Positions 327 to 21,002 of a stretch of DNA of 21,305 nucleotides are shown here, piece by piece (within the stretch, counting starts at the first letter, position 1; each line of letters opens with the position of its first letter). The stretch is from a virus, in IMG/VR virus record IMGVR_UViG_3300042478_001796, positions 1 through 21,305 of that record, one strand, 5' to 3'. The notes under the pieces were generated by a model. That model searched no databases. It was not told the DNA's origin and worked only from the letters and a program-made list of their open reading frames with translations. Made by a program: the position numbers and the translations under genes.

Positions 327-361
327 GGGCCGCTCTGGGAAACCGGGGCGGCCCTAATTTT
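327..361 (+). terminator. Intrinsic terminator of the plus-strand gene
   Basis: Bases 327-338 and 343-354 form a 12-bp stem closed by a GAAA tetraloop, then TAATTTT. All 12 positions pair in the plus-strand RNA if two G-U wobbles are allowed. In the minus-strand RNA those two become C-A mismatches and no U-run follows, so the element should act mainly on rightward transcripts. A smaller 5-bp hairpin (310-314 with 319-323) precedes it. The 3' arm and tail overlap the stop codon (354-356) of the convergent giant gene. Confidence 0.85.
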
Positions 362-3300
362 GTGGCGCGGGGACGGTCTCAGGGAGGAACGACTGCGGCT
401 GCATGCCGGTCGGCATCTGCTGGCCGATGCCCATGATGAACTGACCATAAAGCGAGCGCTGTGCGGGCGTGAGATTGCCAACGCTATGGCCAAACAGTCC
501 GGCCTTCACGGCGGCGTTCACGTCCTTCACGTCTTTGACAAAGAGATCCACCTTCGTTTGGTCGGGAACCGAAGCGTATTGCGGCAGGGCCAGCCTATTG
601 TAATAGATCCCCATGGTCATGTTGCCGAGGTAGTAGCGGTAGGCCGCCATCTGCTCGTTGGTCAGCTCGATCTGCTGCCCATTGATCGCCACCTTATTGC
701 TCTTGATCTTGGTCGGCAGCATCTTCGTCTCGCCGGTCACGGACATGATGCGCTCCAGCTCTTGGAAGGCGGGGTCGCCCTTGTATTTCGTGAAGCGGGC
801 GGGGTTGATGAAGACATTGAAGAACGAGTTGCCACCGTATCCGTAGCGCTCGACCGCTTGCCCGAGGATGTCGTAGCGCGGGGGAAAGCTGGTTGAGACA
901 CCGGGGAGTTGTGACCCGATGTTCATAAACATCCGCTTCATGTCTGCCGTTAGCGTCGGGCCGGTGGCGCTGCGAAATTCTCGCTCATAGTTGTCTCTGT
1001 ATTGGGCATACTGCCTGACAATCTGCGGGACAAACATGGATGGCATGCCGAGTCCCGTATCGTAGATGGCCGAAATCGGCTCGCCGCTGTTTGCCCACTC
1101 GCGGTTAAAGGCCGCGAAACCTTGAAGAAGCGGCTCCTCCTTGAGCGACTTGGCCCCCGCCAGCATGCTTATGGCCAACCATCCGGCACGCTCTCCAACT
1201 CTGCCGCCCTTAGTTGCCTCGCGCTGCGAGGCGTCTTGCTGCTTTCCGTATTCGGCTCCGGCCGCCACCACAATGGACATCGGCTGCGCCCAGCTATAGT
1301 CCATAAGCGTGTCGCCATCGACGGGAGGATACGGATTGCTCCAGTCTCCAGTGAGAAGGCGCCTGCGGAGTTGTGTCAGGTTTACTTGATACGACCCGAG
1401 GCCCGACGCCTTGCGCATCTGCTCCAACTTCTCATCCTCTTCGCGGCTCGCCGTTATGATGCCCATCTTGTAGAGGTAGAGGCCAGTCATCCACGCTCCG
1501 CTGCCAATTAGGGCTTGGGAAAATTCACGGTTAAATGCTTGCCGGTCGAACTTGCCAGTCTGAGCCATGCCGTTGGCGTAAAGGACCCCCCTCATTCCGC
1601 GATAGCTGGCCTGAATAAATCCAAGCGGCGACCAGTCAACAAATCCGCGCTGCACGATGGCCCCCGGCACTTGGGCGAACGGCACAATAGCCGTGCCAAG
1701 TCCGAACTCTTTGTTGCGGTTCAGCGTTCGCCGAAGATCAGCAATAAGTTTGCTGGTGAAATTCGGGTTCTGGTAGATGGCATACATGGCGTCCGCCTGC
1801 GCCGTCTCGACCATCTCGGGAGTGGGTTGGCCGGTCCATTCGCCGTTCTTCTTGGCGGCGGCCTCCATCTGTGCCAAGCGAACCTTGTATTCTGCCATCC
1901 AAAAGGCGCGATCAGCAGCCCCGAGGGCGACAGACAGCGTGGACTCCAACATCTGCATGGCACGACCACTGAACAGTTGACGATTTACATCCTTCACATC
2001 GCCAAACTCATACTTGTTTTGCGTGGTTAGCTTGGACATGACGCGCAAGTGGCTAAGTCCGGCCATGAACTCATTCTTCCGCTCGCTCGGGGACTTGGCC
2101 TCGTTTTGTTTTGCCGCCCACTTCCATCCTTTGACGAAATCCTTGGCTGGCGTAATCATGGCCGAGATGCGCTTGCCGCCCGATGCGGCATAGACCAATC
2201 CGGCGCCAGCGCCAATGACGGCTCCCGCTGTCGTGCCGATAACCGGAACGATGGAGCCAATGGCGGCGCCTGTTGCTGCGCCGGCCGCCGTCCGTCCAGC
2301 CGCACCCATTAGGCCAACGCCCGATGCACTGGTGCGCTTGCCGCCGCTGAACAATCCAAAGGCAGGGTCAGCAACCATGTTTATGACGGCGTCCCGCCCG
2401 ATGTTGGCGACAAGCTGGATCGTGTTGCCGCCAATGTTTCTGATCCACGTCTTGGGGGCGAACAGCATGGAGAGGTAAGCTACGGCGCGCGTCTGCGCCC
2501 AGATGTCTTGCGGCACAATGCTCATGGCCCGCTCATACATCTTGGCGGTTAGCACTGTCTTCACGTCTTCGTCCGTGGTCGCTTGGATCTGTTCGCGGTA
2601 GCTGTTTAATTCCGCCGCCAACTCCGGGGTCATGGCGGGGACGCCATAGATTGCCGCCACGCGGGACAGGTATTGCGAGTCGGTTAGGTTGCCCGCTTTC
2701 AGGTCGGCTTGCAGTTGGTTGAATGTCTTTAGGGCCTCGCCCGTGGCCGGTTTTCGGGGGGCAATAAGCTGCGCGCGGACTTGGTCGAGGGCCTTGTAAA
2801 ATTGGTTGGCTACGGAGGAAGCAATGGATTCCGCCTCTCCCTTGGAAAGTCCGGCTTCTTGCAGGATCTTGGCGATCTGTGGCTTGGCCGCTTCTTTCAC
2901 GCTTGGGCCGGTCAACACGTCGCGGATGGCCACCATGACCTGTTCGCCCTGCTGCACGGATTCAACGCGCCGACTAATCCTTAGACCGATGCGCTCGCCG
3001 CCGAACTGCCCTTCTTTTAAGACAGAGTTGGCAATGTCGGTCTTGGCTTGAGCCACCGTTGCACCAATTTGATCCACCACGGACTGTGCTTTCTTCAATG
3101 CCTCTTGCCGCTCGGGCGGCAGGGTGTTGATGTAGTCCTCGATCATGCGGTTGGCATACATGACGATGCCTTCCGGCGTCATCATGCCGATGATCTTGAG
3201 GTGGGCGATGGCGGCGCCCATGGTCTGGCCCTTGCGGCTTACCACCTTTAGCACCGTAGCCTGACCGTTGTAGTCCTGCATGGCGCCGAGGCGGCCGGCC

Positions 3301-5168
3301 AATTCCACGGCGATGGAAATTTCCACCGGCGTCATGGCGCGGCGGTCATCGGTCAACGCAATTTCCGCCATGAGCTGACGAGCGGCATCCAGCCCGTAGT
3401 CATTGATCCAAGCCTTGGCGGCATCAATGGAGTCCTTAAACCTCTGCACATCATAGACGCTGCCCATGAGGCTTTGCGTCTGCTCGGGGACGTTGGGCAT
3501 CTCGCTCGCCCTCTCCTCAAATTGGCGGGGACGTTGCTCGGGATTCGTGTTGGCTGGGGCAGGGGATGGCGGCGGCGGGACTGATCCTTGTGCTGGCTGC
3601 GACTGCACGGGCTGCGCTGCTGGCGCCGGCTGCGGCACCGCCGTCGCGGGGGCGGGTCCGCCAGCGGCGGCATTGGCGGCAATGTTTTGCTGCGTGGCCC
3701 GAGCCATGTTCGGCGCGCGACCCATCGGCCGTGCGGGAATAGAAATTGTTTGGCCGCCCAGCTCTACGTTGACATCGCCGGCCCGAAGCTGCTCCTCGGG
3801 GATGATAGCGGCGTTGCCCAGCGGGAGTTCTCGGGCGCGCTCAAGCCTTGTGCCCACCGCAATGTCAACGCCGCCCATGACGGAGTCGGCCGCCGTCTCG
3901 GCAATGATGCTTCGACCGCTGGTGATCTGTCCGTCTTGCGCGATCTGTTTGCTGGCCTCTCCCGCTCCACCCATGAACGACTGAACCGCCGTCTCTACGG
4001 CGCCAGCGGTCAACCGCCCGAGCATCTTGGTGCCTTGCCGGCCAAGCAATTTGCCGGCGATCAAAGCGCTGCCCACATCAAAGGTGGCGACGGGCACGGC
4101 TCCCTTCTCGGCAAACTCCCGAGCCAAGGCCATGCGCTCGGGGTTTTGTAGTCCTTCGGTCAGTGCCTGCGGGTCACTGATGTCGATGCCCGCGCGCTGA
4201 AAAGAATCCAAGATGCCGCTGCTCATTTCCATCGAGTAGCTGGCCAACCCCACGGCATTGGCGTATCCCGCCCTTGCGCCAAGCAGCGCCCCCTTAGGGC
4301 CACCGACAAGGGCGCCCGCACCCGTCCACAAGACCGCCGGGGCCACGCCTTTGTTAAGCATCTGGCGAGTAAAGCCAGCCATGGTCTCGCCGATCAGCTC
4401 GCCAAAAACTCCGACCGGATTGTAGCTGAACGCCTTCCAGCTTTCCAACGGCGGGCGGTTGTCGTCCATCGTAATGGAGTAAGCCTGCGACGGTGGCAGC
4501 TTTTGGATTTCTTGCTGGTAAGCAATGACGGCCTCGGGGTTGGGTTGCTCTGCATCCATCTCCATAGCCATGCCAGCGCTGGCCCACCCACGTTGAAAGG
4601 CGTTCCATGTGCTGGCGATGTTGTTGCCACGGATGAGGTTGAGGGCGGGGGCGCCTTCGGGATCTGTGCCCTCATCTGGAGCAAGGAGAAAACTGTCCGC
4701 GCTCATTTGCTGCGGAGAGAACGTGGGGTCGCTTCCTGACGTTCCGCCGCCACCGCCGCCGCCGCCGCTGCTTCCCCCCGATCCAACCCCTGATGGGGGA
4801 AGAGTGCTTTCGGAAAGGAAATCGTCAGCAGAAGGAACGGGATCGCTGCCGGGAAGGGGCTGTTGCTGGGCGTTAAGAAAGTCTTCGGCCGCGCTTGCAC
4901 TTGTCGCCTCGTCTTCTTCTGTCCATGGGGGCAGATCGCTTGGCGCGGCATTCCCGGCCACCGGATCAACCGATGTTGCCGCTGGCCGATTGCTGGCTAT
5001 CGGAGGAAGCGGGGCATCCTCTCGCTCTGGCGCAATATCGAGTTGTGTCTCTGGCAGCGACTTGTCCCACTGGGATCTGTCGTTGAGAATTGCCCGCTGT
5101 TCCCGCTCGTAGGCGGCTGCGTCTTGGTCTGATAGGCCAAGAAACCGATCTGCCTCCGATACGGCCAT
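354..5168 (-). CDS. Giant virion/ejection-type protein, 1604 aa
   Basis: This is the largest gene in the window and the last of the leftward operon; its ATG overlaps the upstream stop (TAATG). The N-terminal ~250 residues are low complexity and acidic, with a Gly-rich tract near residues 129-143. Gly/Ala-rich, membrane-prone segments lie near 273-306, 366-400 and most clearly 950-1000. A Pro/Gln/Ala linker spans about 497-560, followed by a long helical region (about 565-850). Near residue 900 is FAPKTWIRNIGGN, a motif I associate with very large polyvalent phage and mobile-element proteins. The C-terminus (KYKGDPAFQELERIM, then INGQQIELTNEQMAAYRYY) resembles the ends of large podovirus internal proteins. 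I see no lytic transglycosylase motif of the T7 gp16 type. Inferred role: packaged with the DNA and ejected to form part of the entry channel. Confidence 0.7.
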   Translation of the reverse strand: MAVSEADRFLGLSDQDAAAYEREQRAILNDRSQWDKSLPETQLDIAPEREDAPLPPIASNRPAATSVDPVAGNAAPSDLPPWTEEDEATSASAAEDFLNAQQQPLPGSDPVPSADDFLSESTLPPSGVGSGGSSGGGGGGGGTSGSDPTFSPQQMSADSFLLAPDEGTDPEGAPALNLIRGNNIASTWNAFQRGWASAGMAMEMDAEQPNPEAVIAYQQEIQKLPPSQAYSITMDDNRPPLESWKAFSYNPVGVFGELIGETMAGFTRQMLNKGVAPAVLWTGAGALVGGPKGALLGARAGYANAVGLASYSMEMSSGILDSFQRAGIDISDPQALTEGLQNPERMALAREFAEKGAVPVATFDVGSALIAGKLLGRQGTKMLGRLTAGAVETAVQSFMGGAGEASKQIAQDGQITSGRSIIAETAADSVMGGVDIAVGTRLERARELPLGNAAIIPEEQLRAGDVNVELGGQTISIPARPMGRAPNMARATQQNIAANAAAGGPAPATAVPQPAPAAQPVQSQPAQGSVPPPPSPAPANTNPEQRPRQFEERASEMPNVPEQTQSLMGSVYDVQRFKDSIDAAKAWINDYGLDAARQLMAEIALTDDRRAMTPVEISIAVELAGRLGAMQDYNGQATVLKVVSRKGQTMGAAIAHLKIIGMMTPEGIVMYANRMIEDYINTLPPERQEALKKAQSVVDQIGATVAQAKTDIANSVLKEGQFGGERIGLRISRRVESVQQGEQVMVAIRDVLTGPSVKEAAKPQIAKILQEAGLSKGEAESIASSVANQFYKALDQVRAQLIAPRKPATGEALKTFNQLQADLKAGNLTDSQYLSRVAAIYGVPAMTPELAAELNSYREQIQATTDEDVKTVLTAKMYERAMSIVPQDIWAQTRAVAYLSMLFAPKTWIRNIGGNTIQLVANIGRDAVINMVADPAFGLFSGGKRTSASGVGLMGAAGRTAAGAATGAAIGSIVPVIGTTAGAVIGAGAGLVYAASGGKRISAMITPAKDFVKGWKWAAKQNEAKSPSERKNEFMAGLSHLRVMSKLTTQNKYEFGDVKDVNRQLFSGRAMQMLESTLSVALGAADRAFWMAEYKVRLAQMEAAAKKNGEWTGQPTPEMVETAQADAMYAIYQNPNFTSKLIADLRRTLNRNKEFGLGTAIVPFAQVPGAIVQRGFVDWSPLGFIQASYRGMRGVLYANGMAQTGKFDRQAFNREFSQALIGSGAWMTGLYLYKMGIITASREEDEKLEQMRKASGLGSYQVNLTQLRRRLLTGDWSNPYPPVDGDTLMDYSWAQPMSIVVAAGAEYGKQQDASQREATKGGRVGERAGWLAISMLAGAKSLKEEPLLQGFAAFNREWANSGEPISAIYDTGLGMPSMFVPQIVRQYAQYRDNYEREFRSATGPTLTADMKRMFMNIGSQLPGVSTSFPPRYDILGQAVERYGYGGNSFFNVFINPARFTKYKGDPAFQELERIMSVTGETKMLPTKIKSNKVAINGQQIELTNEQMAAYRYYLGNMTMGIYYNRLALPQYASVPDQTKVDLFVKDVKDVNAAVKAGLFGHSVGNLTPAQRSLYGQFIMGIGQQMPTGMQPQSFLPETVPAPQN

Positions 5169-5806
5169 TACTTCATGCCCCAGTGCAGAAGCGCACTCTT
5201 GGCTTCGTCGTGATTGATTTGATTTTTCATAAACGCTTCACGCACTTGATACGGGCTGGAGAATGTCATGGCCGCGCCGGCGCTGTTGGTCATGGTGAGC
5301 GGTTGCTGCACCTGTGGTGCGGGCGCCGCTGGCGCTGCTTGTCCCTGCTGCGCCGCTGCGGCGGCGCGTGCGGCATCGTTGTTCATGCCAACCGTGGGCT
5401 GCACACCCATACCCCATCCTCCACCGGACGCAACGTAGCCCTTGTAGGGTTCAAGGCTCTGCGGGTTGACAACAGGAACAGCGTTGGTTGGATTTACCAT
5501 ACTGACAATGCCCTGTGTGGTGTTTTGGATTTTGGGTTCAATGACCTGCGGTTCGCCGTTGGGCTTGATAAGAACGTCAATCGAGCGCCCCTCTTGATTT
5601 GTGAGGGATAAGTATTGCGGTGGCGCCTTGGGTCCAGAGGCAATGGCTTGCATCCGAAGCTCGTTAAATTTATTGGCCTGTTTTTCAACGAACTTATACT
5701 GAGGGGAATCAAGCTCCATGCGCGTTCCTGCTGGAATTTGCATTACCTCGCGGCCAAAACGGATCACGTCATAGACCATCGGGTTGTTGGTTTGTTGTGG
5801 TGGCAT
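5168..5806 (-). CDS. Unknown protein of the ejection block, 212 aa
   Basis: The gene lies between two putative internal virion genes, and its stop overlaps the start of the giant gene, so the two are probably translated together. The first ~100 residues look folded and mixed (VYDVIRFGREVMQIPAG; SLTNQEGRSIDVLIKPNGEP). A Gly/Ala/Pro/Gln-rich linker follows (about 125-170), then a short C-terminal helical segment (SSPYQVREAFMKNQINHDEA). There is no clear Shine-Dalgarno; the start follows an AT-rich stretch directly after the upstream stop. No family is recognised. The linker separating two small domains suits a structural or chaperone-like partner of the 1604-residue protein, but this rests on position only. 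Confidence 0.75.
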   Translation of the reverse strand: MPPQQTNNPMVYDVIRFGREVMQIPAGTRMELDSPQYKFVEKQANKFNELRMQAIASGPKAPPQYLSLTNQEGRSIDVLIKPNGEPQVIEPKIQNTTQGIVSMVNPTNAVPVVNPQSLEPYKGYVASGGGWGMGVQPTVGMNNDAARAAAAAQQGQAAPAAPAPQVQQPLTMTNSAGAAMTFSSPYQVREAFMKNQINHDEAKSALLHWGMK

Positions 5807-5810
5807 ATTA

Positions 5811-6242
5811 TTAAAATTCTACAAACGGTTTCGCGGCGGTTGCCGGCATCGCCATCTGCCAGTTGCCCGCCCCATCAAAGAACCCGCTGCGACCGGCGAG
5901 CATCGACTTGCGGCCAAAGTCTAGCTCTGCCAGATACGGGGCGATGTAAGCGTTGGCCGAGGCAAAGTCCTTTTTCTGAACAAAGTCCTGAACGGTAGCG
6001 TTAAGCTCCGGCGACAGCATGTTCTTGCTGGTGAGAAAGTTATACATTCCCTCAAAGGTGCGCTTCTGGTTTTTGTTTTCCTTGGAAGACTCTCCGTAGA
6101 TTCCGCCGATAGTAGCCAAGGCCCCGCCGATATTGTTGCCAAGCTGGTTATACATATTGGCCTGCGTGTTGGCTGATGCGATCTGGCCGGCTGCGGTGAT
6201 CTCGCCGCTGCGGTCAGCGACTTGCGGTGAATAGCTAAACAT
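5811..6242 (-). CDS. Small putative internal virion protein, 143 aa
   Basis: The start is well supported by a GAAGGAGA Shine-Dalgarno eight bases upstream. The N-terminal ~50 residues are rich in Ala, Gly, Asn and Gln with a glycine-spaced hydrophobic stretch (NIGGALATIGGIYG), which could pack as a helix or touch membrane. A charged Lys/Asn/Glu linker follows (ESSKENKNQKRT), then a helical C-terminal half containing NFLTSKNMLSPELNATVQDF. No known domain is recognised. Composition, size and position among probable ejection proteins suggest a small internal head protein, comparable in place (not in proven homology) to the small core protein of T7-like phages. Confidence 0.75.
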   Translation of the reverse strand: MFSYSPQVADRSGEITAAGQIASANTQANMYNQLGNNIGGALATIGGIYGESSKENKNQKRTFEGMYNFLTSKNMLSPELNATVQDFVQKKDFASANAYIAPYLAELDFGRKSMLAGRSGFFDGAGNWQMAMPATAAKPFVEF

Positions 6243-6269: not shown

Positions 6270-7148
6270 TTAAGCCGCCACGCGGCCGTCGATGATTCGT
6301 GTTATTGGCCGGCCGGACACGTCCTGCGAACGATGCTCAAAGCCCTGCGCTGAGTTGGCGTGATCCTCGTAGGGAAGATGCGCCGAGATGTTGTTGACTT
6401 GCGCGTTCAGCTTGGGGCACCAGACCGTGTCGGTCTCGGCGCGACTGATGCAGCGCGTGCAGACATGCGGGTAGTCGGCGTTGCGCGACTTGTCGGCGAG
6501 ATGGCTCCAAGATCCGGTGTCGTCCCGGCCGTAGCGTGTCTCATCATTCGGGATGCCCTCTGCCTCCAGGTATCGCCAGACATCCTCATCGCTCCAGTCC
6601 CGCATGAGGTAGAGCTGCGTTGGTGCGTCAGGGATGCGTTGAGCGTCAACAGACAAGGGGAGCAGCCCCTTGATCGGGTCAACGTCTGCTGACTTCTGGC
6701 CATGAAAGCAGGCGTCCCAAGGCCAAGCAAAGGCGCCCAAGGGACGTTGCAAGGCGTCCAGCCCGCAGCGCCATGGCTTGCCATCGACTGGGGGCTGCGA
6801 GCCTATTGAGATGATGAGCGCCGTCTGCTGCCCCCATTGCTGATACTTTAGAAAGTCAATCTGATGCTTGCCGTCCGGCGATGTCCCGTCAGTCAGGGCG
6901 ACTCGGCTGGGCGGGTAGTCATGCACGTCGAGATCCCATGCACGGGTCAGTGCGTCCGCCAGTTCATAGCGGTCACGGAACCAAGGGTCGCGGTATTGCA
7001 CGCATGGCAGCTTCACGCCGACCTTGTGCAGCAGAATATGCAGCATGGCGTTGCTGTCCTTGCCGCCGCTCCATAGCACGCACGGGGCGCTGAACTCATT
7101 GAGCCAGCGTTCCGCCTTGCGGCAAGTGTCTGCGACAAGTTTGTCCAT
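6270..7148 (-). CDS. PAPS-reductase-family PP-loop enzyme, 292 aa
   Basis: The nucleotide-binding PP-loop SGGKDS lies at residues 27-32, in LWSGGKDSNAMLHILLHKVG, the signature of the PAPS-reductase/ATP-pyrophosphatase superfamily. Other family-like features are WRCGLDALQRPLG (Cys128), a CFHGQKSAD segment near 147-154, MRDWSDEDVWRYLEAEGIP around 182-200, and a CxxC pair (Cys230, Cys233) followed by Cys244 that could bind zinc or an iron-sulfur cluster. The C-terminal ECGxH motif of true CysH is absent, so sulfate assimilation is doubtful; nucleic-acid sulfur modification (DndC-like) or another adenylation-dependent reaction is possible. An upstream ATG at 7199 would overlap the previous gene by 50 bases; the start at 7148, just after that gene's stop, is preferred. 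An enzyme gene inside a structural block is odd. Confidence 0.88.
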   Translation of the reverse strand: MDKLVADTCRKAERWLNEFSAPCVLWSGGKDSNAMLHILLHKVGVKLPCVQYRDPWFRDRYELADALTRAWDLDVHDYPPSRVALTDGTSPDGKHQIDFLKYQQWGQQTALIISIGSQPPVDGKPWRCGLDALQRPLGAFAWPWDACFHGQKSADVDPIKGLLPLSVDAQRIPDAPTQLYLMRDWSDEDVWRYLEAEGIPNDETRYGRDDTGSWSHLADKSRNADYPHVCTRCISRAETDTVWCPKLNAQVNNISAHLPYEDHANSAQGFEHRSQDVSGRPITRIIDGRVAA

Positions 7149-7149
7149 A

Positions 7150-8574
7150 TTAGAGTGCCAACCCGACTCCGGTGAGGGCACCGCCGCCGATCCCGCCAAA
7201 CATCCCCATCATGCCCGACTGCCCCATGGCCCCTGCCTGCATATTCGCCGCCTGCACCGCCGCATTGTTGTTCTGCCAAGAATTGTAGAGCGATCCCTGT
7301 AGGTTTTGGTTAAAGCTCGCCACATTCCCGCTCGCCGTGAGCGCATTGCCAAACGTCTGACCGATGGACTGCATCCCTTGGCCAGTGTTCGCCATTCCAA
7401 CTTGGAACGCCGGACCAGTCGCCCGCGCATACGGATCGAGGTCGGCGAATCCGCCGGCCAGTCCGAGGCGCCGCTGACGGCGGGCGAGGTCGAGCTGGTT
7501 GGCGCCGAGCGCCAGATTCATCCGGCGGTCTTCGGCCGCGTTGAAGGCATCGCGTCCAGCCATCATAAATCCGCGATTCTGCGCGAGTTGCTGCTGGTTC
7601 GCCGCTTGGTTGGCCATCTGCGCCCGCATGAGCATGTCGCCGAGGGATTGATCGCGCTGCTGGTTGGACATTTGCGCCTGCATGCTGGTTGCTTGGTTGA
7701 GGCGCTGCGCGTCCATCGCCGCCGCTTGGTCTGCGATTGATAGCTGCCCAGCCATTCTTTGATTGGCCTGCTGCGCCACAAGACGGTTTCCGACGTTTTG
7801 AAATTGCCGCTCCACATCTTGTCCCTGCACAGCACTGGCGAAGGCATTGTCCTCGTCGCGTCGAGCGCGGGCAAAGCGGTCGCGGTTAAGCATCTCCGCA
7901 GCCAGTCCGGCGCTGCCTGTAGCCATGCCGCGTGCGGCCATACCGGCGCGGGCAGCTTGCGTTGCATCGCGGGACGCCTCGGCTGAAAGCCTGCCGCCGC
8001 TCTGCGCACGCTCCATGGCTTGCGACATGAGAGCGCCGCCAAGAGATCCGGCAGCAACGTCCTGCGAGCCAACATCTGCCACACGGTCGGCCCTAACTCC
8101 AGAAACACTCGGCGCCCCGATCTCACGGATACCGCTCGGTCCACCGACCTGATCGGCTCGTTGGCCCATCGCCATCATGCTTTGTCCAAGGATCTGCCGG
8201 TCGGCCAGCGTGGGGCCGGAGGCAAACTGGTTGGCCGACCGCCGCTGAATCGCATCCTCCAGCGCAGAGGATCGTGACGCAGCGTTCAGCTCGTCGCTGA
8301 TGACGTTGCGGGCGGTGCCGAGGTATTGGTTGTCCATGCCCCGCGCCAGCTCGTTGACCGTTCCAAACTGCAACCCAACCATCGTCGGGTAAAGCCGCTG
8401 AAGCTGCGCCTCCTGTTCGCGCATCGTGGCGATGGCGCTGCGCGTGGCAGCGTTATACATCGCGTCGTAGTCAATCGGTTGTGGCGCTGCCGGTTGCGGC
8501 ACGTTGTAGGTGATGCTGCTTCCGCCACCACCGCCACCGAAAATGCTTGAAACTGCTCTTCCTACGCCTCCCAT
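7150..8574 (-). CDS. Ala/Gln/Arg-rich internal virion (ejection) protein, 474 aa
   Basis: The start has AAGGAG eight bases upstream. The protein begins with a Gly-rich segment (residues 13-18 are all Gly) and continues as a long, mostly helical protein with few aromatics, very rich in Ala, Gln, Met, Asn and Arg; residues about 190-370 look like extended amphipathic or coiled-coil helix. The segment AAEMLNRDRFARARRDEDN is of a type I recall from podovirus internal virion proteins. The C-terminal ~30 residues are Gly/Met/Ala-rich and hydrophobic, suggesting membrane contact. Likely packaged in the head and ejected with the DNA; inferred from composition and position. It comes right after fibre genes and before the PP-loop gene. 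Confidence 0.72.
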   Translation of the reverse strand: MGGVGRAVSSIFGGGGGGSSITYNVPQPAAPQPIDYDAMYNAATRSAIATMREQEAQLQRLYPTMVGLQFGTVNELARGMDNQYLGTARNVISDELNAASRSSALEDAIQRRSANQFASGPTLADRQILGQSMMAMGQRADQVGGPSGIREIGAPSVSGVRADRVADVGSQDVAAGSLGGALMSQAMERAQSGGRLSAEASRDATQAARAGMAARGMATGSAGLAAEMLNRDRFARARRDEDNAFASAVQGQDVERQFQNVGNRLVAQQANQRMAGQLSIADQAAAMDAQRLNQATSMQAQMSNQQRDQSLGDMLMRAQMANQAANQQQLAQNRGFMMAGRDAFNAAEDRRMNLALGANQLDLARRQRRLGLAGGFADLDPYARATGPAFQVGMANTGQGMQSIGQTFGNALTASGNVASFNQNLQGSLYNSWQNNNAAVQAANMQAGAMGQSGMMGMFGGIGGGALTGVGLAL

Positions 8575-8578
8575 AATT

Positions 8579-8929
8579 TTATCTCCTTGTTGTTGCTTTT
8601 AGTAATTTAGACCACTCGTAAACTCTCGGCTCAAAGCCGCTGCGCCGGAACCATGCTGCGTATTGGTGCGGGTGACTGGCCGCACGCATATACTCCCGCA
8701 CCGGATTGGCGTGACCGACTGCCGCTGCCAACCGCACGAACCAACAGTTAGGCTCGCCGTCCTCAAAGCGTTGCTCCTCCGCATTCCAGCGCACCTCTGA
8801 CATCAAGACAAAGACCTGCGCGGTAGCGTGAACAAGACCATTGGACAAATGCCAACCCAGAAGCTCCTCGAAAGTCGCCGTGGCGTCGTTTTCCTCTTGC
8901 CATTGTCTTGCCTTTTGCCATGGCAGCAT
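8579..8929 (-). CDS. Small unknown phage protein, 116 aa
   Basis: The gene begins two bases after the tail-fibre stop and ends just before the 474-aa gene, whose Shine-Dalgarno lies in its last codons. Its own start has a weak GAGGG about eight bases upstream. It is a compact, Trp-rich soluble protein (WQKARQWQEEN; FEELLGWHLSNGLVHATAQVFVLM; NCWFVRLAAAVG). The layout resembles a group of small phage proteins I recall near tail genes that share a pattern of xxHGxVxSTPxxFxM followed by a C-terminal W/R-rich segment, but this match is weak. No function is assigned; a fibre-associated accessory role is possible from position. Confidence 0.72.
   Translation of the reverse strand: MLPWQKARQWQEENDATATFEELLGWHLSNGLVHATAQVFVLMSEVRWNAEEQRFEDGEPNCWFVRLAAAVGHANPVREYMRAASHPHQYAAWFRRSGFEPRVYEWSKLLKATTRR
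8583..8588 (-). promoter_or_regulatory. Shine-Dalgarno AAGGAG for the 474-aa gene
   Basis: On the minus strand AAGGAG sits eight bases before the ATG at 8574, within the last codons of the upstream 116-aa gene. It fixes the start of the 474-aa protein. Confidence 0.75.
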
Positions 8930-8931
8930 TT

Positions 8932-10260
8932 TTAGCCCTCATACATAATGTTCACCGATCCGGCGTCGAACGTGTCGGTGCCGTTGACGGTGGTTAGGCG
9001 GATGCGGTCGAGGGTGTCGGAGAGGGTTTTTGTTCCGGCGCTTAACGCAACCGCCACGGCGGCATCGGCGCGATTAAAGACGCCCGTTGCTATCCAAGTA
9101 TTTCCAGAGTCAAACCGTGTTAGCGTAATAACGCCTGCTTGAATAACGGTGCTGGCCCCCGCTGAACCGATAATGAATCCCGATGTCCCAGCAGTTCCAG
9201 CGGGGCCAGTGTTGTCAACCAACATCCCCTTGGACGCATAGCCCGTGTTCTCAATGCCTCCAGAATCACCCAGTTGGATAATGTAAGCACTCGTCCCGCT
9301 TGTGCTAACCTCATTAAACATCACCGTAATCCGCTTCACCCAAGACGGAATGCCTGTAAAGTCGATGCTGGTGCCGCTGGTGGTGTTTTGCGCGGTGGCA
9401 AGCGTGAGCGGCTGCGAGAGCTTGGCAGGCGTGACGGCGGCATCGGAAATGCGCGCAATCGGCAGCGTTCCAGTGGTGAGCTTGCTGGCGTCGATGCCAG
9501 TGGCGAGCTTGGCATCGGTGACGTTGCTGTCGGCAATCTTTGCTGTGGTCACGTTGCTGTCGGCAATCTTCGCCGTGGTGACAGCGTTGTTGGCAATCGT
9601 GGTTGCCGCGCTGACGTTAGCCGCGCCATTGAAAGATCCAGTAGTTCCGGTCACATCTCCGGTTAGTGCTATGGTTCGACCTGTTGCGAGTGTTGCCGCG
9701 CTTCCAGAAGCATTGCCTGTAACATTGCCTGTCACATTGCCTGTAACATTGCCGGTTAATGGCCCGCTAAATGCCGTGGCTTTCACGGCGCCATTAACAT
9801 CAAGCTTTTCGGTAGGTGCGGTCCCGATCCCCACATTCCCGCTGGAGTCGATCCGCATGCGTTCGCTCAAAGTTCCACTATTGCGGGTGTGAAAACTTAA
9901 AGATCCCGTAGTTGCTGGGTTCTCTAAAGCGCCTACAATTTGCGCTGCGGCAGTTGGCGTTGATCCCGATAAAGCTCCGATTTCAATGCTTTGCGATGCT
10001 GGGCCAAACAATGTAACGTCCAATGATCGGAATGCGCTTACGGCAACGGCAGCAGCGGAAGACACAGTTGTCGCACCGACACTCAAGGTGCCGGTGGTAA
10101 CGACGTTCTGACCCCCAAAGTTGGGTGCGACTTTGGTTCCGGCGATGGCGGCGGTGGCGCTGACATCGGCGTTGACGATCTCGCTGACGGTGCGGGCGGA
10201 ATTTAACTTAGTCGGGGTCACGGTATCCCCAGAGGTGAAGGTGTAATTATAGGAGGCCAT
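8932..10260 (-). CDS. Tail fibre / receptor-binding protein, 442 aa
   Basis: The N-terminal region (1-60) likely attaches to the tail. Residues 130-157 contain ERMRIDSSGNVGIG and EKLDVNG, a segment common in phage tail fibres. A TGNV repeat follows (169-183), then three ten-residue repeats of the NVTTAKIADS type (226-255), typical of a trimeric fibre shaft. The C-terminal ~155 residues form a probable beta-rich tip: FTGIPSWVKRITVMF near 301 and GTDTFDAGSVNIMYEG at the end, an ending I recall from other phage fibre tips. It would bind the host receptor. The ATG at 10260 has no Shine-Dalgarno; AATTCCT precedes it directly. It follows the nozzle gene after a 113-base gap, the largest gap in the leftward operon. 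Confidence 0.87.
   Translation of the reverse strand: MASYNYTFTSGDTVTPTKLNSARTVSEIVNADVSATAAIAGTKVAPNFGGQNVVTTGTLSVGATTVSSAAAVAVSAFRSLDVTLFGPASQSIEIGALSGSTPTAAAQIVGALENPATTGSLSFHTRNSGTLSERMRIDSSGNVGIGTAPTEKLDVNGAVKATAFSGPLTGNVTGNVTGNVTGNASGSAATLATGRTIALTGDVTGTTGSFNGAANVSAATTIANNAVTTAKIADSNVTTAKIADSNVTDAKLATGIDASKLTTGTLPIARISDAAVTPAKLSQPLTLATAQNTTSGTSIDFTGIPSWVKRITVMFNEVSTSGTSAYIIQLGDSGGIENTGYASKGMLVDNTGPAGTAGTSGFIIGSAGASTVIQAGVITLTRFDSGNTWIATGVFNRADAAVAVALSAGTKTLSDTLDRIRLTTVNGTDTFDAGSVNIMYEG
9491..9610 (-). repeat. 30-bp tandem repeats in the tail-fibre shaft
   Basis: Two units at 9521-9550 and 9551-9580 are nearly identical (both start acgttgctgtcggcaatctt on the plus strand and differ in only a few bases), with degenerate copies on each side. 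Each encodes ten residues of the fibre shaft. Such repeats can expand or contract by slippage and change fibre length. Confidence 0.75.
9711..9758 (-). repeat. 12-bp tandem repeats (four copies) in the tail-fibre gene
   Basis: Four consecutive 12-base units, cattgcctgtaa and close variants on the plus strand, start at 9711, 9723, 9735 and 9747. They encode a TGNV-type four-residue repeat and keep the reading frame, so copy-number change would lengthen or shorten the fibre without a frameshift. Confidence 0.85.
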
Positions 10261-10373: not shown

Positions 10374-12509
10374 TTAGGCCGCACTCCTCGTCTCAGTAGG
10401 CGGTAGAGATTTCGGCGATGCCTCAATGCTGGCCGATCTGATTTCCGGTCGGCCTCCGGATGTTTGGTAAATGACTTCGGCGCTGTGAGCCTTATAGCGC
10501 ACCGGAGACTTCATGTTGTAGTCCTCGGTCGTTACGTTGCTGTTGGTCAGCGTTCCGATGGTTGTTTCGGTGTCAGGGTTGATTGTGCTGATCTTGGTCG
10601 AGACACTGGCGCTGGCGGGAATGACTACATCGGCAATGGTGCGGAGGAACCGCTTGCTGTGCATGTCGCCAAAGTCGTAGCGGCGCGTCTTGATGCTGCC
10701 GACCACCGGACTGGTGCCTGAGTTGACTGCCGTGTCATCAATCGCCGTGTCGTTCTCTTCCAGCAAATACAGGTTGCCGGAGCGAGGAATTGAAAAGACG
10801 CGGCGTTGGTTGTTGTAGGTTCCGACAAGGATCTGGTTGACCGATGCGCTGCTTGGGTATGTGTCGCGGTATTCCCAAGTGTCGGTGAGTGCGTTCCATG
10901 CAATGACCAGCTTGTTGCCATCAAGCGGCTCGGCGCTGGTAGGAAGCGCGACCAAATAGCGGTTGTTGTGCCAGATCCCAAAAGCCGACTTCTCCACGCG
11001 GGCCTGCACTACTTGGCTGAAGAGGTCGGCGATAGGCTCTGACAGCGGCTTGGTGTCGCCGCGAACCTTGAGGTCGAGGGCGCGGTCTAAGCGGTAGATG
11101 CCTGCGTCCGAGAGGAAGAACACAAAGTTACCGGCGGTGACGATGGTGTTCCTTGCGCTGCATCCGATCTCGTTGGTCAGGAGCGTGAGCTGTGACACCG
11201 GAGTGTCGACCGAGAAGTCGCTGCCATCGGTGGAGGCGAATTGATTGAGCGTGGCGAGCCAGATGGACTTGCGGCAGAAAACGAGGGCTTGGCCTTCGAC
11301 CCATGGGTGAATTGCCACAATGCGGTCATCGCCGCCTGCGCCTGCGCGGAAGCTGTTCCAGAATGGATCGTAGAGGTCGGGGTCGAGAACATCGCTAATG
11401 CCGACCGTGTCGCGGTTTTTGGCGATCCAGAGGCGGTTGTTGTGGTAGCTGGCCCAGCCGACCGATGGCATGCGGGTGTAGGTGACGCCTTCTGATGGAA
11501 TGCCTGCGGTGGCGCGGACGAATTGACCGCTGCCGCCGTCCCAATAGATCGGCGGTTTTGTCCGGCGCACCTTGATGCCTGCGGCGGCATGCGTGGCGGT
11601 GCCGCTTGGGACGGTAATAGTGAAGTGCGTGTTGTCACCTGCCGGTGCCGCGTCCACGATGTCAAACTCATGGCCGTCGAACGCAGGCGTTGTAGATCCT
11701 TCAATACGGACGCGGGCGCCAACCGGATAGCCATGGGCCGAGGCGAAGCTCACGGTGGCTGTCGTTGAACTGACGCTGATACCTCCGGCGTCAGTCAGCT
11801 TTTCCTCGTAGCCGGTTGCAGTGCGGGATGCTTCGCGGAGTATGTAGAGGCGGTCGAACGCCTGCACTACTGAGACAGTGTCGGTGCCTTCGATCTTCTC
11901 GGCGGGGCTGGTCGGATAGGTCTTCACGACCGGCGATTGTCCCTGCCGGTAAAGCGTGGCGCTGTCAGATCCGGCGAGCACGATAAATTCGTTGGCGTTG
12001 TCGTAGTTCTGGCTGGCGAAGACTCCGGCCGCGTAGAGTCCGCCCTCGTAGCTGTCGCGGACTTCGGGGCCGTTGTTGGCGATGATGGTGCCGGTGGCCG
12101 GTGTCGCGGGAGATCCGCTGACGGTGTAGGTAAAAGTATTGGCGTCCGTCACGGTGACGATGAAGTCGCCGTTGTAGTCGGTCTGCACGGCGCCACGAAT
12201 GTTCACTTGGTCGCCGGTCGTGAATCCGTGGGCGGTCGCAGTGACGGTCGCGGTGGTCGAGGCGCGTGTGATCGAGGTGACTGCCTTGTCGGTGCCGAGG
12301 GTAAAATCAAGAGTCAGCGGGGCGCCGGTCGTGCCGATGGTGTCGGTCAGGCGCTTGCTGCCCTTGCGGGTTTGGGCGACGCCACGGTCCAACCTCATGT
12401 TCACGCTGTCTTGCAGCATGCCCGCCGGAAGGGTCAGCGGGTTAAGGCGAGAGGCGAAGCCGATGAAGCCGTTGTCGCCGTCGCGTTGGACTGGAGATTC
12501 TAATGCCAT
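10374..12509 (-). CDS. Tail nozzle-like protein with two inserted beta domains, 711 aa
   Basis: The N-terminus (FASRLNPLTLPAGMLQDSVNMRLDRG then TRKGSKRL) matches the pattern of podovirus tail nozzle or stabilisation proteins (T7 gp12 / P22 gp10 type): a line listing the residues of a phage-wide start followed by a beta-propeller-like body. WASYHNNRLWIAKNRDTVGISD near 352-373 and later WHNNRYLVALP fit propeller blades. Two related beta modules are inserted, at about 77-145 and 243-315; both carry STTATV, AHG and a (Y/F)(N/D)G segment. The product would form the lower tail tube below the adaptor. Its start overlaps the amidase stop (TAATG). The family call is from motifs; the inserted domains are directly visible. 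Confidence 0.8.
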   Translation of the reverse strand: MALESPVQRDGDNGFIGFASRLNPLTLPAGMLQDSVNMRLDRGVAQTRKGSKRLTDTIGTTGAPLTLDFTLGTDKAVTSITRASTTATVTATAHGFTTGDQVNIRGAVQTDYNGDFIVTVTDANTFTYTVSGSPATPATGTIIANNGPEVRDSYEGGLYAAGVFASQNYDNANEFIVLAGSDSATLYRQGQSPVVKTYPTSPAEKIEGTDTVSVVQAFDRLYILREASRTATGYEEKLTDAGGISVSSTTATVSFASAHGYPVGARVRIEGSTTPAFDGHEFDIVDAAPAGDNTHFTITVPSGTATHAAAGIKVRRTKPPIYWDGGSGQFVRATAGIPSEGVTYTRMPSVGWASYHNNRLWIAKNRDTVGISDVLDPDLYDPFWNSFRAGAGGDDRIVAIHPWVEGQALVFCRKSIWLATLNQFASTDGSDFSVDTPVSQLTLLTNEIGCSARNTIVTAGNFVFFLSDAGIYRLDRALDLKVRGDTKPLSEPIADLFSQVVQARVEKSAFGIWHNNRYLVALPTSAEPLDGNKLVIAWNALTDTWEYRDTYPSSASVNQILVGTYNNQRRVFSIPRSGNLYLLEENDTAIDDTAVNSGTSPVVGSIKTRRYDFGDMHSKRFLRTIADVVIPASASVSTKISTINPDTETTIGTLTNSNVTTEDYNMKSPVRYKAHSAEVIYQTSGGRPEIRSASIEASPKSLPPTETRSAA

Positions 12510-19997: not shown

Positions 19998-21002
19998 CTA
20001 GGAAGTCGCGGCGAACTCGCCGAGGCCTTTCGGGTTCCAGCACACCAACGCGGCAATCGCATCAACGAGGCCACGCGGTCCACCACCTTGGTCTTCCAGC
20101 TCTTGGAAGCGGGGGCGACGGCCGTAACGGGACTCCAACATGTCCATGTTGAGAAGGTAGCCACGGGCCGACTGAACGGCAGCGGCTGCGTCCTTCGCAT
20201 TGAACAAGGTCGGCACCAAATTAATTGTGCCGAAGTCGCCGATGTAGGTGTCCACCGTGCTGATGACCGTGCGGTCATTGAGCGAAGCGGTGTATTGACG
20301 GGTGCTCAGAGCGGTGTTGCTGCCGCTGGAGTAGCGGGTGAACTCGCTGAAGCGCTTCTTGAGGTTCGGGCCAGTGACGAGATCCATCGTGTCGATGGTG
20401 CCGGTCTGCTCGTAGACGCTCTGAAGAACGGCGGCCACATCGCTCTCGGTGAGAGAGGAGGTAGCAGTCGTGTTGATCGAAGCGGACGGCGTGCGGAACG
20501 ACGCGGGAACAGGCAGGTCGGTCTGAGCCGAGTTGGAGATCCACGAACCGAGGCCGCGAGTTTTATATGGGTTAACGCCGCTCTGCTCTTGCGAATCGTT
20601 GCTGGAGCAGAAGGCGCTTTCCATGTCGCGCTTCAGTTCGATGAGGGCGCGGGAAACGCCGCGAGCCATTTCCTTCTTCTTGCCAACGCCAGCGACGTTA
20701 TCGACGTTCTGGGCAAAGTCATCGACTTTGATGGAACGGCGGAACTTCTGGGCGCGGCCGGAAAGGAGGACGCGGTTTTTGGCGGGATCGTCAAACGTGG
20801 TGACATCCGCATTGGTGAGGACGCCGTCGAACGACGGGTCGTTATAGCTGTCGGCCTGCCAAGAGAAGACAGAGCCATTGGTGAGATCCGAGCCGGCTTT
20901 GATGCGGGAAGTGACGGGCGTGTTTTTCTGGTCGATGACCGAGATCACGTCAGCCAAGTCTTCGCGCAGTCCGGTGGCCGGATGAACAAGTCCTTGTGAC
21001 AT
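19998..21002 (-). CDS. Major capsid protein (DUF5309 / SU10-type HK97 fold), 334 aa
   Basis: The protein forms the icosahedral shell. Family features in order: N-terminal LREDLADVISVIDQKNTPVTSRI (about 12-34), SVFSWQADSYN (44-54), AKNRVLLSGRAQKFRRSIKV (74-93), GVSRALIELKRDMESAF (115-131, the conserved helix of this family) and KTRGLGSWISN (147-157), all matching the DUF5309 pattern as I recall it. Length (334) is normal. The ATG has no clear Shine-Dalgarno (a run ending CACACAAT precedes it), which is surprising for the most abundant virion protein. The stop is TAG. It is followed by the decoration gene and preceded by the end of a Lys/Ala-rich gene that might be a scaffold. Confidence 0.88.
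   Translation of the reverse strand: MSQGLVHPATGLREDLADVISVIDQKNTPVTSRIKAGSDLTNGSVFSWQADSYNDPSFDGVLTNADVTTFDDPAKNRVLLSGRAQKFRRSIKVDDFAQNVDNVAGVGKKKEMARGVSRALIELKRDMESAFCSSNDSQEQSGVNPYKTRGLGSWISNSAQTDLPVPASFRTPSASINTTATSSLTESDVAAVLQSVYEQTGTIDTMDLVTGPNLKKRFSEFTRYSSGSNTALSTRQYTASLNDRTVISTVDTYIGDFGTINLVPTLFNAKDAAAAVQSARGYLLNMDMLESRYGRRPRFQELEDQGGGPRGLVDAIAALVCWNPKGLGEFAATS

Follow-up and report, generated by a model that had tools for sequence, protein, structure and literature searches.

A phage PP-loop protein of the PAPS reductase superfamily, without the CysH catalytic end, encoded in the virion module

Why does a gene that resembles PAPS reductase lie among the virion genes of a phage, and what might its product do there? 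The gene (P0001) occupies positions 6270 to 7148 on the minus strand of the window, by which we mean the whole 21,305-nucleotide stretch of viral DNA that was analyzed, and it is a real gene. From an ATG at 7148, the frame is open for 292 codons, and the 292-residue product matched phrog_424 (E 2e-8 in the PHROG search) as well as PF01507, for which the profile search proposed in a preliminary description of this locus gave a score above the Pfam gathering cut-off (24.8 versus 22.5 bits). Comparison between alleles yielded a dN/dS of about 0.05 to 0.15, and the PP-loop protein is therefore maintained by selection. At least 61 environmental phage proteins make up the family to which it belongs, and we aligned 61 of them (alignment A3); all 61 matched phrog_424, and 59 matched PF01507 at E 0.01 or better.

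The preliminary description had noticed an SGGKDS PP-loop, a CxxC motif with one more cysteine, and the lack of a CysH-type ECGxH end. The loop was confirmed at residues 27 to 32 (7053 to 7070; like all motifs of this gene, on the minus strand) and is present in 61 of 61 members. The CxxC and the additional cysteine are C230/C233 and C244, within a C230-x2-C233-x10-C244-P-K motif (residues 230 to 246, 6411 to 6461; C..C.{9,12}CPK in 61/61), while the description had overlooked a further invariant cysteine, C128 (6765 to 6767), which lies in the same hhalign block as the CC..RK cysteines of CysH and adjoins the CC. At the site of the GxRxx(E/Q)S motif of CysH and DndC, the phage protein has GxKxxDxDxxxG (residues 150 to 161, 6666 to 6701); GxKxxDxD was found in 60 of the 61 members and G.R..[EQ]S in none. 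Across A3, whose main set is 24 to 76% identical to the window protein, WSGGKDS, C128, C230xxC233 and C244PK are constant, D202..RY is constant as well, and W185xD187 is kept in 90% or more of the sequences. ECGxH was indeed absent, both from the window protein and from all 61 aligned members.

The phage protein thus belongs to the PAPS reductase superfamily, and it is not a CysH, because ECGxH occurred in 19 of 19 CysH proteins (a comparison set chosen by that motif) and SGGKDS in none of them, whereas the phage family showed the reverse (0/61 and 61/61, respectively). The PF01507 score and the ECGxH count together support the earlier view that this PP-loop protein falls in the PAPS-reductase clade but is missing the CysH catalytic end, and what the description had named as grounds against itself, a true CysH with its catalytic cysteine, was not encountered, as no member has ECGxH. 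Likeness to CysH (2goy, 6vpu, PF01507) extends to the fold, the DWxxxDVWxYL helix, and a first cysteine and CxxC in matching places, but not to the degenerate loop, the usual CC pair, GxRxx(E/Q)S, or the ECGxH catalytic end. That the gene encodes a true assimilatory sulfate reductase, and hence is a sulfur auxiliary metabolic gene, is hardly credible to us. PF01507 is passed, C128 and the CxxC align with CysH positions, and some members have weak matches to NCBIfam CysH models; however, the catalytic end is missing throughout, the ATP-form SGGKDS is foreign to the CysH set, the window protein scored 13.5 bits against the cut-off of 154 for PRK02090 (CysH), and no other sulfate pathway genes were recognized in the window.

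An AlphaFold2 model computed from a deep alignment (pLDDT 90, pTM 0.88) was compared with known structures, as had been suggested. The comparison recovered the PP-loop domain, closest to FAD synthase (VIA Z 15.5), CysD (15.2), the [4Fe-4S] sulfurtransferase TtuA (14.6) and the PAPS/APS reductases (14.2), with exclusions limited to the families present in the structure lists, and it barely covered the residues after 229, which hold three of the four invariant cysteines. With Z up to 15.5 and SGGKDS in 61/61 members, the modeled fold is that of a PP-loop ATP pyrophosphatase. CysD was the top Foldseek match of the model and also the best profile match when hhalign was run against sets built here (CysD 1.9e-16, CysH 1.5e-13, QueC 2.4e-7, DndC 1.6e-7).

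CysD, the small subunit of ATP sulfurylase (1zun_A), is an adenylyltransferase that holds no cluster and works with CysN. It shares the ATP PP-loop and the core of the fold with the phage protein, so a CysD-like adenylyltransferase that joins AMP to a small molecule or an oxyanion, with the cysteines holding a structural zinc, deserves consideration on the strength of the best profile and near-best fold match. We nevertheless find it improbable: CysD lacks such a four-cysteine set, its partner CysN was not seen here, and the NCBIfam CysD models, whose cut-offs range from 195 to 413 bits, gave the window protein only 23 to 29 (TIGR02039, 23.1 versus 396.6; a second CysD model, 28.6 versus 195).

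The cysteines bring DndC to mind, whose own are C146, C273, C280 and C283 (PMC12193691). DndC-type phosphorothioation, marking phage DNA before packaging, would agree with membership in the same superfamily, with the SGGKDS loop and four-cysteine logic, with a layout of first cysteine and CxxC common to both (PMC12193691), and with weak matches to DndC models (PADLOC, best 9e-6, 46 members; TIGR03183, 20 members). The hhalign match to DndC, however, comprised 48 columns and was restricted to the PP-loop, and GxRxxES occurred in 10 of 10 DndC proteins compared but in 0 of 61 phage proteins. DndC is also longer, has its fourth cysteine upstream of the CxxC, and operates with a desulfurase and DndD/E partners, while no PF00266 desulfurase was found in six incomplete phage records and neither DndD nor DndE among the genes examined; we therefore give this explanation little weight. 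C128 and the CxxC occupy the cluster-ligand places of APS reductase and DndC, and C244 is placed differently from both. The [4Fe-4S] sulfurtransferases TtuA, TtcA and LarE likewise combine a PP-loop with cluster cysteines, but they differ in cysteine spacing, possess extra domains, and show no membership at the sequence level.

How widely is this gene distributed? Protein searches of viral contigs yielded 28 and then 36 loci, and in these 36 viral contigs the gene occupied the same place. A DNA scan for sequence coding for V-L-W-S-G-G-K-D-S/T brought at least 78 further loci, some on already known contigs, and same-family proteins were encoded at 76 of 78 loci among the scan matches listed (52 bits or more). 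Three divergent members had no relative among 50,697 cultured phage records; raising the limit to E 10 added nothing beyond cysD genes and a single unrelated tail region, a plasmid search returned cysD only, and a genome scan with the first family alignment detected no relatives. A UniProt entry from an uncultured Caudovirales phage, A0A6J7XPH8, is likely a member, judging from its model (TM 0.83 to 0.91) and 34% identity. This entry and phrog_424, named "phosphoadenosine phosphosulfate reductase", were the only annotation found; both are annotated at the level of a name and are silent on the missing catalytic end, the slot and the partners. Within its known superfamily, the PP-loop family is a subfamily both new and widespread. 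Epsilon15, a candidate for a PAPS reductase in its ejection block, was checked and has none there. A CysH-domain gene lies downstream of the tail fibers in Burkholderia phage CSP3 (PMC10269572). One locus (L014:9023-9892) holds an intragenic recombinant whose N-terminal half comes from the window allele and whose C-terminal half comes from a 73% PP-loop allele.

The placement of the gene between virion-module genes, as first described, was borne out. Upstream of it are a portal-sized protein and, on the minus strand, the major capsid protein (19998 to 21002; phrog_1328 major head protein, 2.5e-39), a 711-residue tail-tube-sized protein that is ttB-like by position and size (10374 to 12509; phrog_3287 virion structural protein, 7e-6; 80 relatives), the small gp116, which by position only is like T7 gp13 (8579 to 8929; synteny), and gp474, with a glycine-rich N terminus (MGG...) and a T7 gp14-like position (7150 to 8574), which is adjacent in nearly all c1-type loci. 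Downstream, on the same strand, follow gp143 (5811 to 6242), which in several relatives that lack the PP-loop gene comes immediately after the gp474-like gene, gp212 (5168 to 5806; placed by synteny), and the very large, 1604-residue gp1604 (354 to 5168), T7 gp16-like by position and size, with synteny and weak PHROG hits among the tape measure and tail lysin families. The term "ejection-protein block" is apt as to the site in the virion module, but the name itself rests on T7-like gene order, and gp474, gp143 and gp212 had no useful family match in PHROG or Pfam. Nor is the location among structural genes the oddity it had been taken for, as it is the norm for the entire family. Misassembly from host DNA, the other objection raised at the outset, can be dismissed, since identical junctions recur in dozens of contigs. 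Just upstream of the block, a fiber-like 442-residue gene with GN(V/A)TGN repeats (8932 to 10260) is among the most variable between relatives.

Coupling to the virion-module genes is close. In the window, the gp474 stop lies one base before the PP-loop ATG (TAATATG, 7146 to 7152, minus strand), and an exact TAATG stop/start overlap with the upstream gene was found at 47 of 78 loci. Within the window clade, the gene always lies between gp474 and gp143 homologues where the contig covers both sides; in far relatives, the PP-loop gene is as a rule preceded by a ttB-like gene, at least one small gene and a mostly MGG-starting protein, in that order. The TAATG overlap was kept although no homology was detected between the upstream proteins of cluster c1 and those of cluster c4 (hhalign probability 5%). 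The family tree, whose deepest part is made unsafe by two long branches (L142 and L149), tracks the type of upstream partner, with 7 changes compared with a mean of 20 when labels were shuffled. Between contigs of the window clade, the PP-loop protein may be 98 to 100% identical while neighbors are often only 30 to 60% identical (40 to 60% around L002, L003, L004 and L006), which we read as a sign of block exchange between phage backbones at this slot. MGG starts are common among c4-clade late genes (58 of 173 within 7 kb, versus 36 of 431 in c1), including unrelated ones (L100:496-978, L107:2281-3337, L103:4315-5915 and others).

Although the slot is fixed, the gene is optional. Of 80 sequences closely related to the ttB protein, 35 extend past the slot; 17 of these carry the PP-loop gene and 18 do not, which makes it an accessory cassette in one slot and not a structural necessity. 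In most noncarriers, the next small gene begins within about 30 bases of the gp474-like gene, and as a rule no replacement gene fills the slot. A tie between gene presence and gp474 type was considered and found unsupported, as noncarriers have gp474 up to 78% identical to that of the window. One old insertion followed by vertical descent with later losses can explain the fixed slot, and the position is therefore no proof of a link to virion function.

These observations bear on two further explanations. A packaged enzyme, made with the ejection proteins, injected, and active at the start of the next infection, e.g., against host defense, would suit a slot between gp14-like and gp15/16-like genes, the TAATG coupling, and the retention of the gene in very divergent phages; but about half of the close relatives form particles without the protein, and the slot may be merely inherited, so that we hold packaging to be unlikely. 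The second is that the enzyme modifies one of the virion proteins, possibly the upstream partner with its MGG start, which is nearly always adjacent and whose kind of start abounds in the c4 module (58/173). Against this, gp474-like proteins, several of them MGG-starting, are found in noncarriers too, and no link was seen between gp474 type and gene presence; this explanation seems to us a poor prospect.

In the c4 clade, a PF03692 protein of 92 to 101 residues with a CxxCxxCC motif comes next after the PP-loop gene, usually overlapping or abutting it (15 loci; 5e-9), while the window lineage has no such partner. The family bears the name "putative zinc- or iron-chelating", and a [4Fe-4S] cluster has been demonstrated in FliB, whose cysteine motif is related (PMC8598068); by analogy, the partner points to metal chemistry. 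For one PF03692 protein in the virion module (L100:1014-1310), cultured phages offered a single, distant match, named "putative ferredoxin" in a record of an Acinetobacter phage.

The protein, then, has an intact ATP-type loop and four invariant cysteines and is devoid of the CysH end, and its gene combines a fixed slot and start/stop coupling with optional presence. We hypothesize that the phage thereby encodes an enzyme of the PAPS reductase/CysD clade, accessory in nature and expressed late, that uses ATP, holds a cluster by its cysteines and transfers sulfur, a reading to which we assign a probability of roughly 0.45. By comparison with enzymes that have an intact SGGKDS, it would bind ATP and adenylate its substrate. 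The four cysteines would hold a metal cluster, most likely [4Fe-4S], at the site used by APS reductase and DndC, with the fourth ligand shifted downstream to C244. The most likely chemistry would be ATP-dependent sulfur transfer of the TtcA/TtuA/DndC type with host sulfur; PF00266, as a sulfur donor gene, was absent from the six phage records, which are incomplete, and host IscS could serve as the donor. The enzyme would act late in infection or be carried in the particle. As for the substrate, nucleic acid may be somewhat more likely than a virion protein, by precedent within the enzyme class only. It counts against the proposal that the cysteines could hold zinc and that CysD, which has no cluster, is the nearest profile; the pI, with a median of 6.0 for the family and 5.7 for the window protein, ranges from nearly neutral to acidic and gives no sign of a nucleic-acid binder. 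In a fuller version, the [4Fe-4S] PP-loop enzyme of the virion module thiolates or otherwise alters its target, be it phage DNA, host tRNA or a virion protein, during particle making, is perhaps injected, and in one lineage is joined by the CxxCxxCC partner; this version we consider doubtful.

Were that version true, the family would represent a class of modification enzymes new for phages, frequent among environmental ones and now named sulfur metabolism, and modification of nucleic acid or virion protein would in itself be a new phage modification route. Virome surveys read PF01507/cysH genes as phage support of host sulfate assimilation (e.g., PMC7785012, PMC8066274). The family described here clears the PF01507 cut-off without the catalytic end and from within the virion module, so part of the virome sulfur signal may be misread; automatic annotation would likely read the family as sulfate assimilation, and counting the gene as a sulfur-metabolism gene is probably wrong. 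A filter that requires SGGKDS, the absence of ECGxH and the CPK-type cysteine set would separate the family. Relatives with and without the gene form natural pairs, which make the question of function testable.

With regard to the host, one member (53% identical) comes from a genome bin of Chthoniobacter (Verrucomicrobiota), where it lies on a contig of 76 kb. This copy probably sits in a prophage, because the first approximately 45 kb of the contig read as bacterial chromosome and the remainder as phage; at 1e-20, it was the one genome with matches among 388 in Verrucomicrobiota. The window lineage integrates: record G003 of this lineage ends beside tRNA-Arg and has a tyrosine recombinase. 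The transporter that flanks it reaches no more than 48% identity with proteins of Verrucomicrobiota, too little to assign G003 a host. At the edge of an integrated relative, tRNA-Arg(TCT) lies beside the tyrosine recombinase (L054:13121-13196, G003:28818-30032), and this tRNA gene is likely the attachment site of the temperate lineage.
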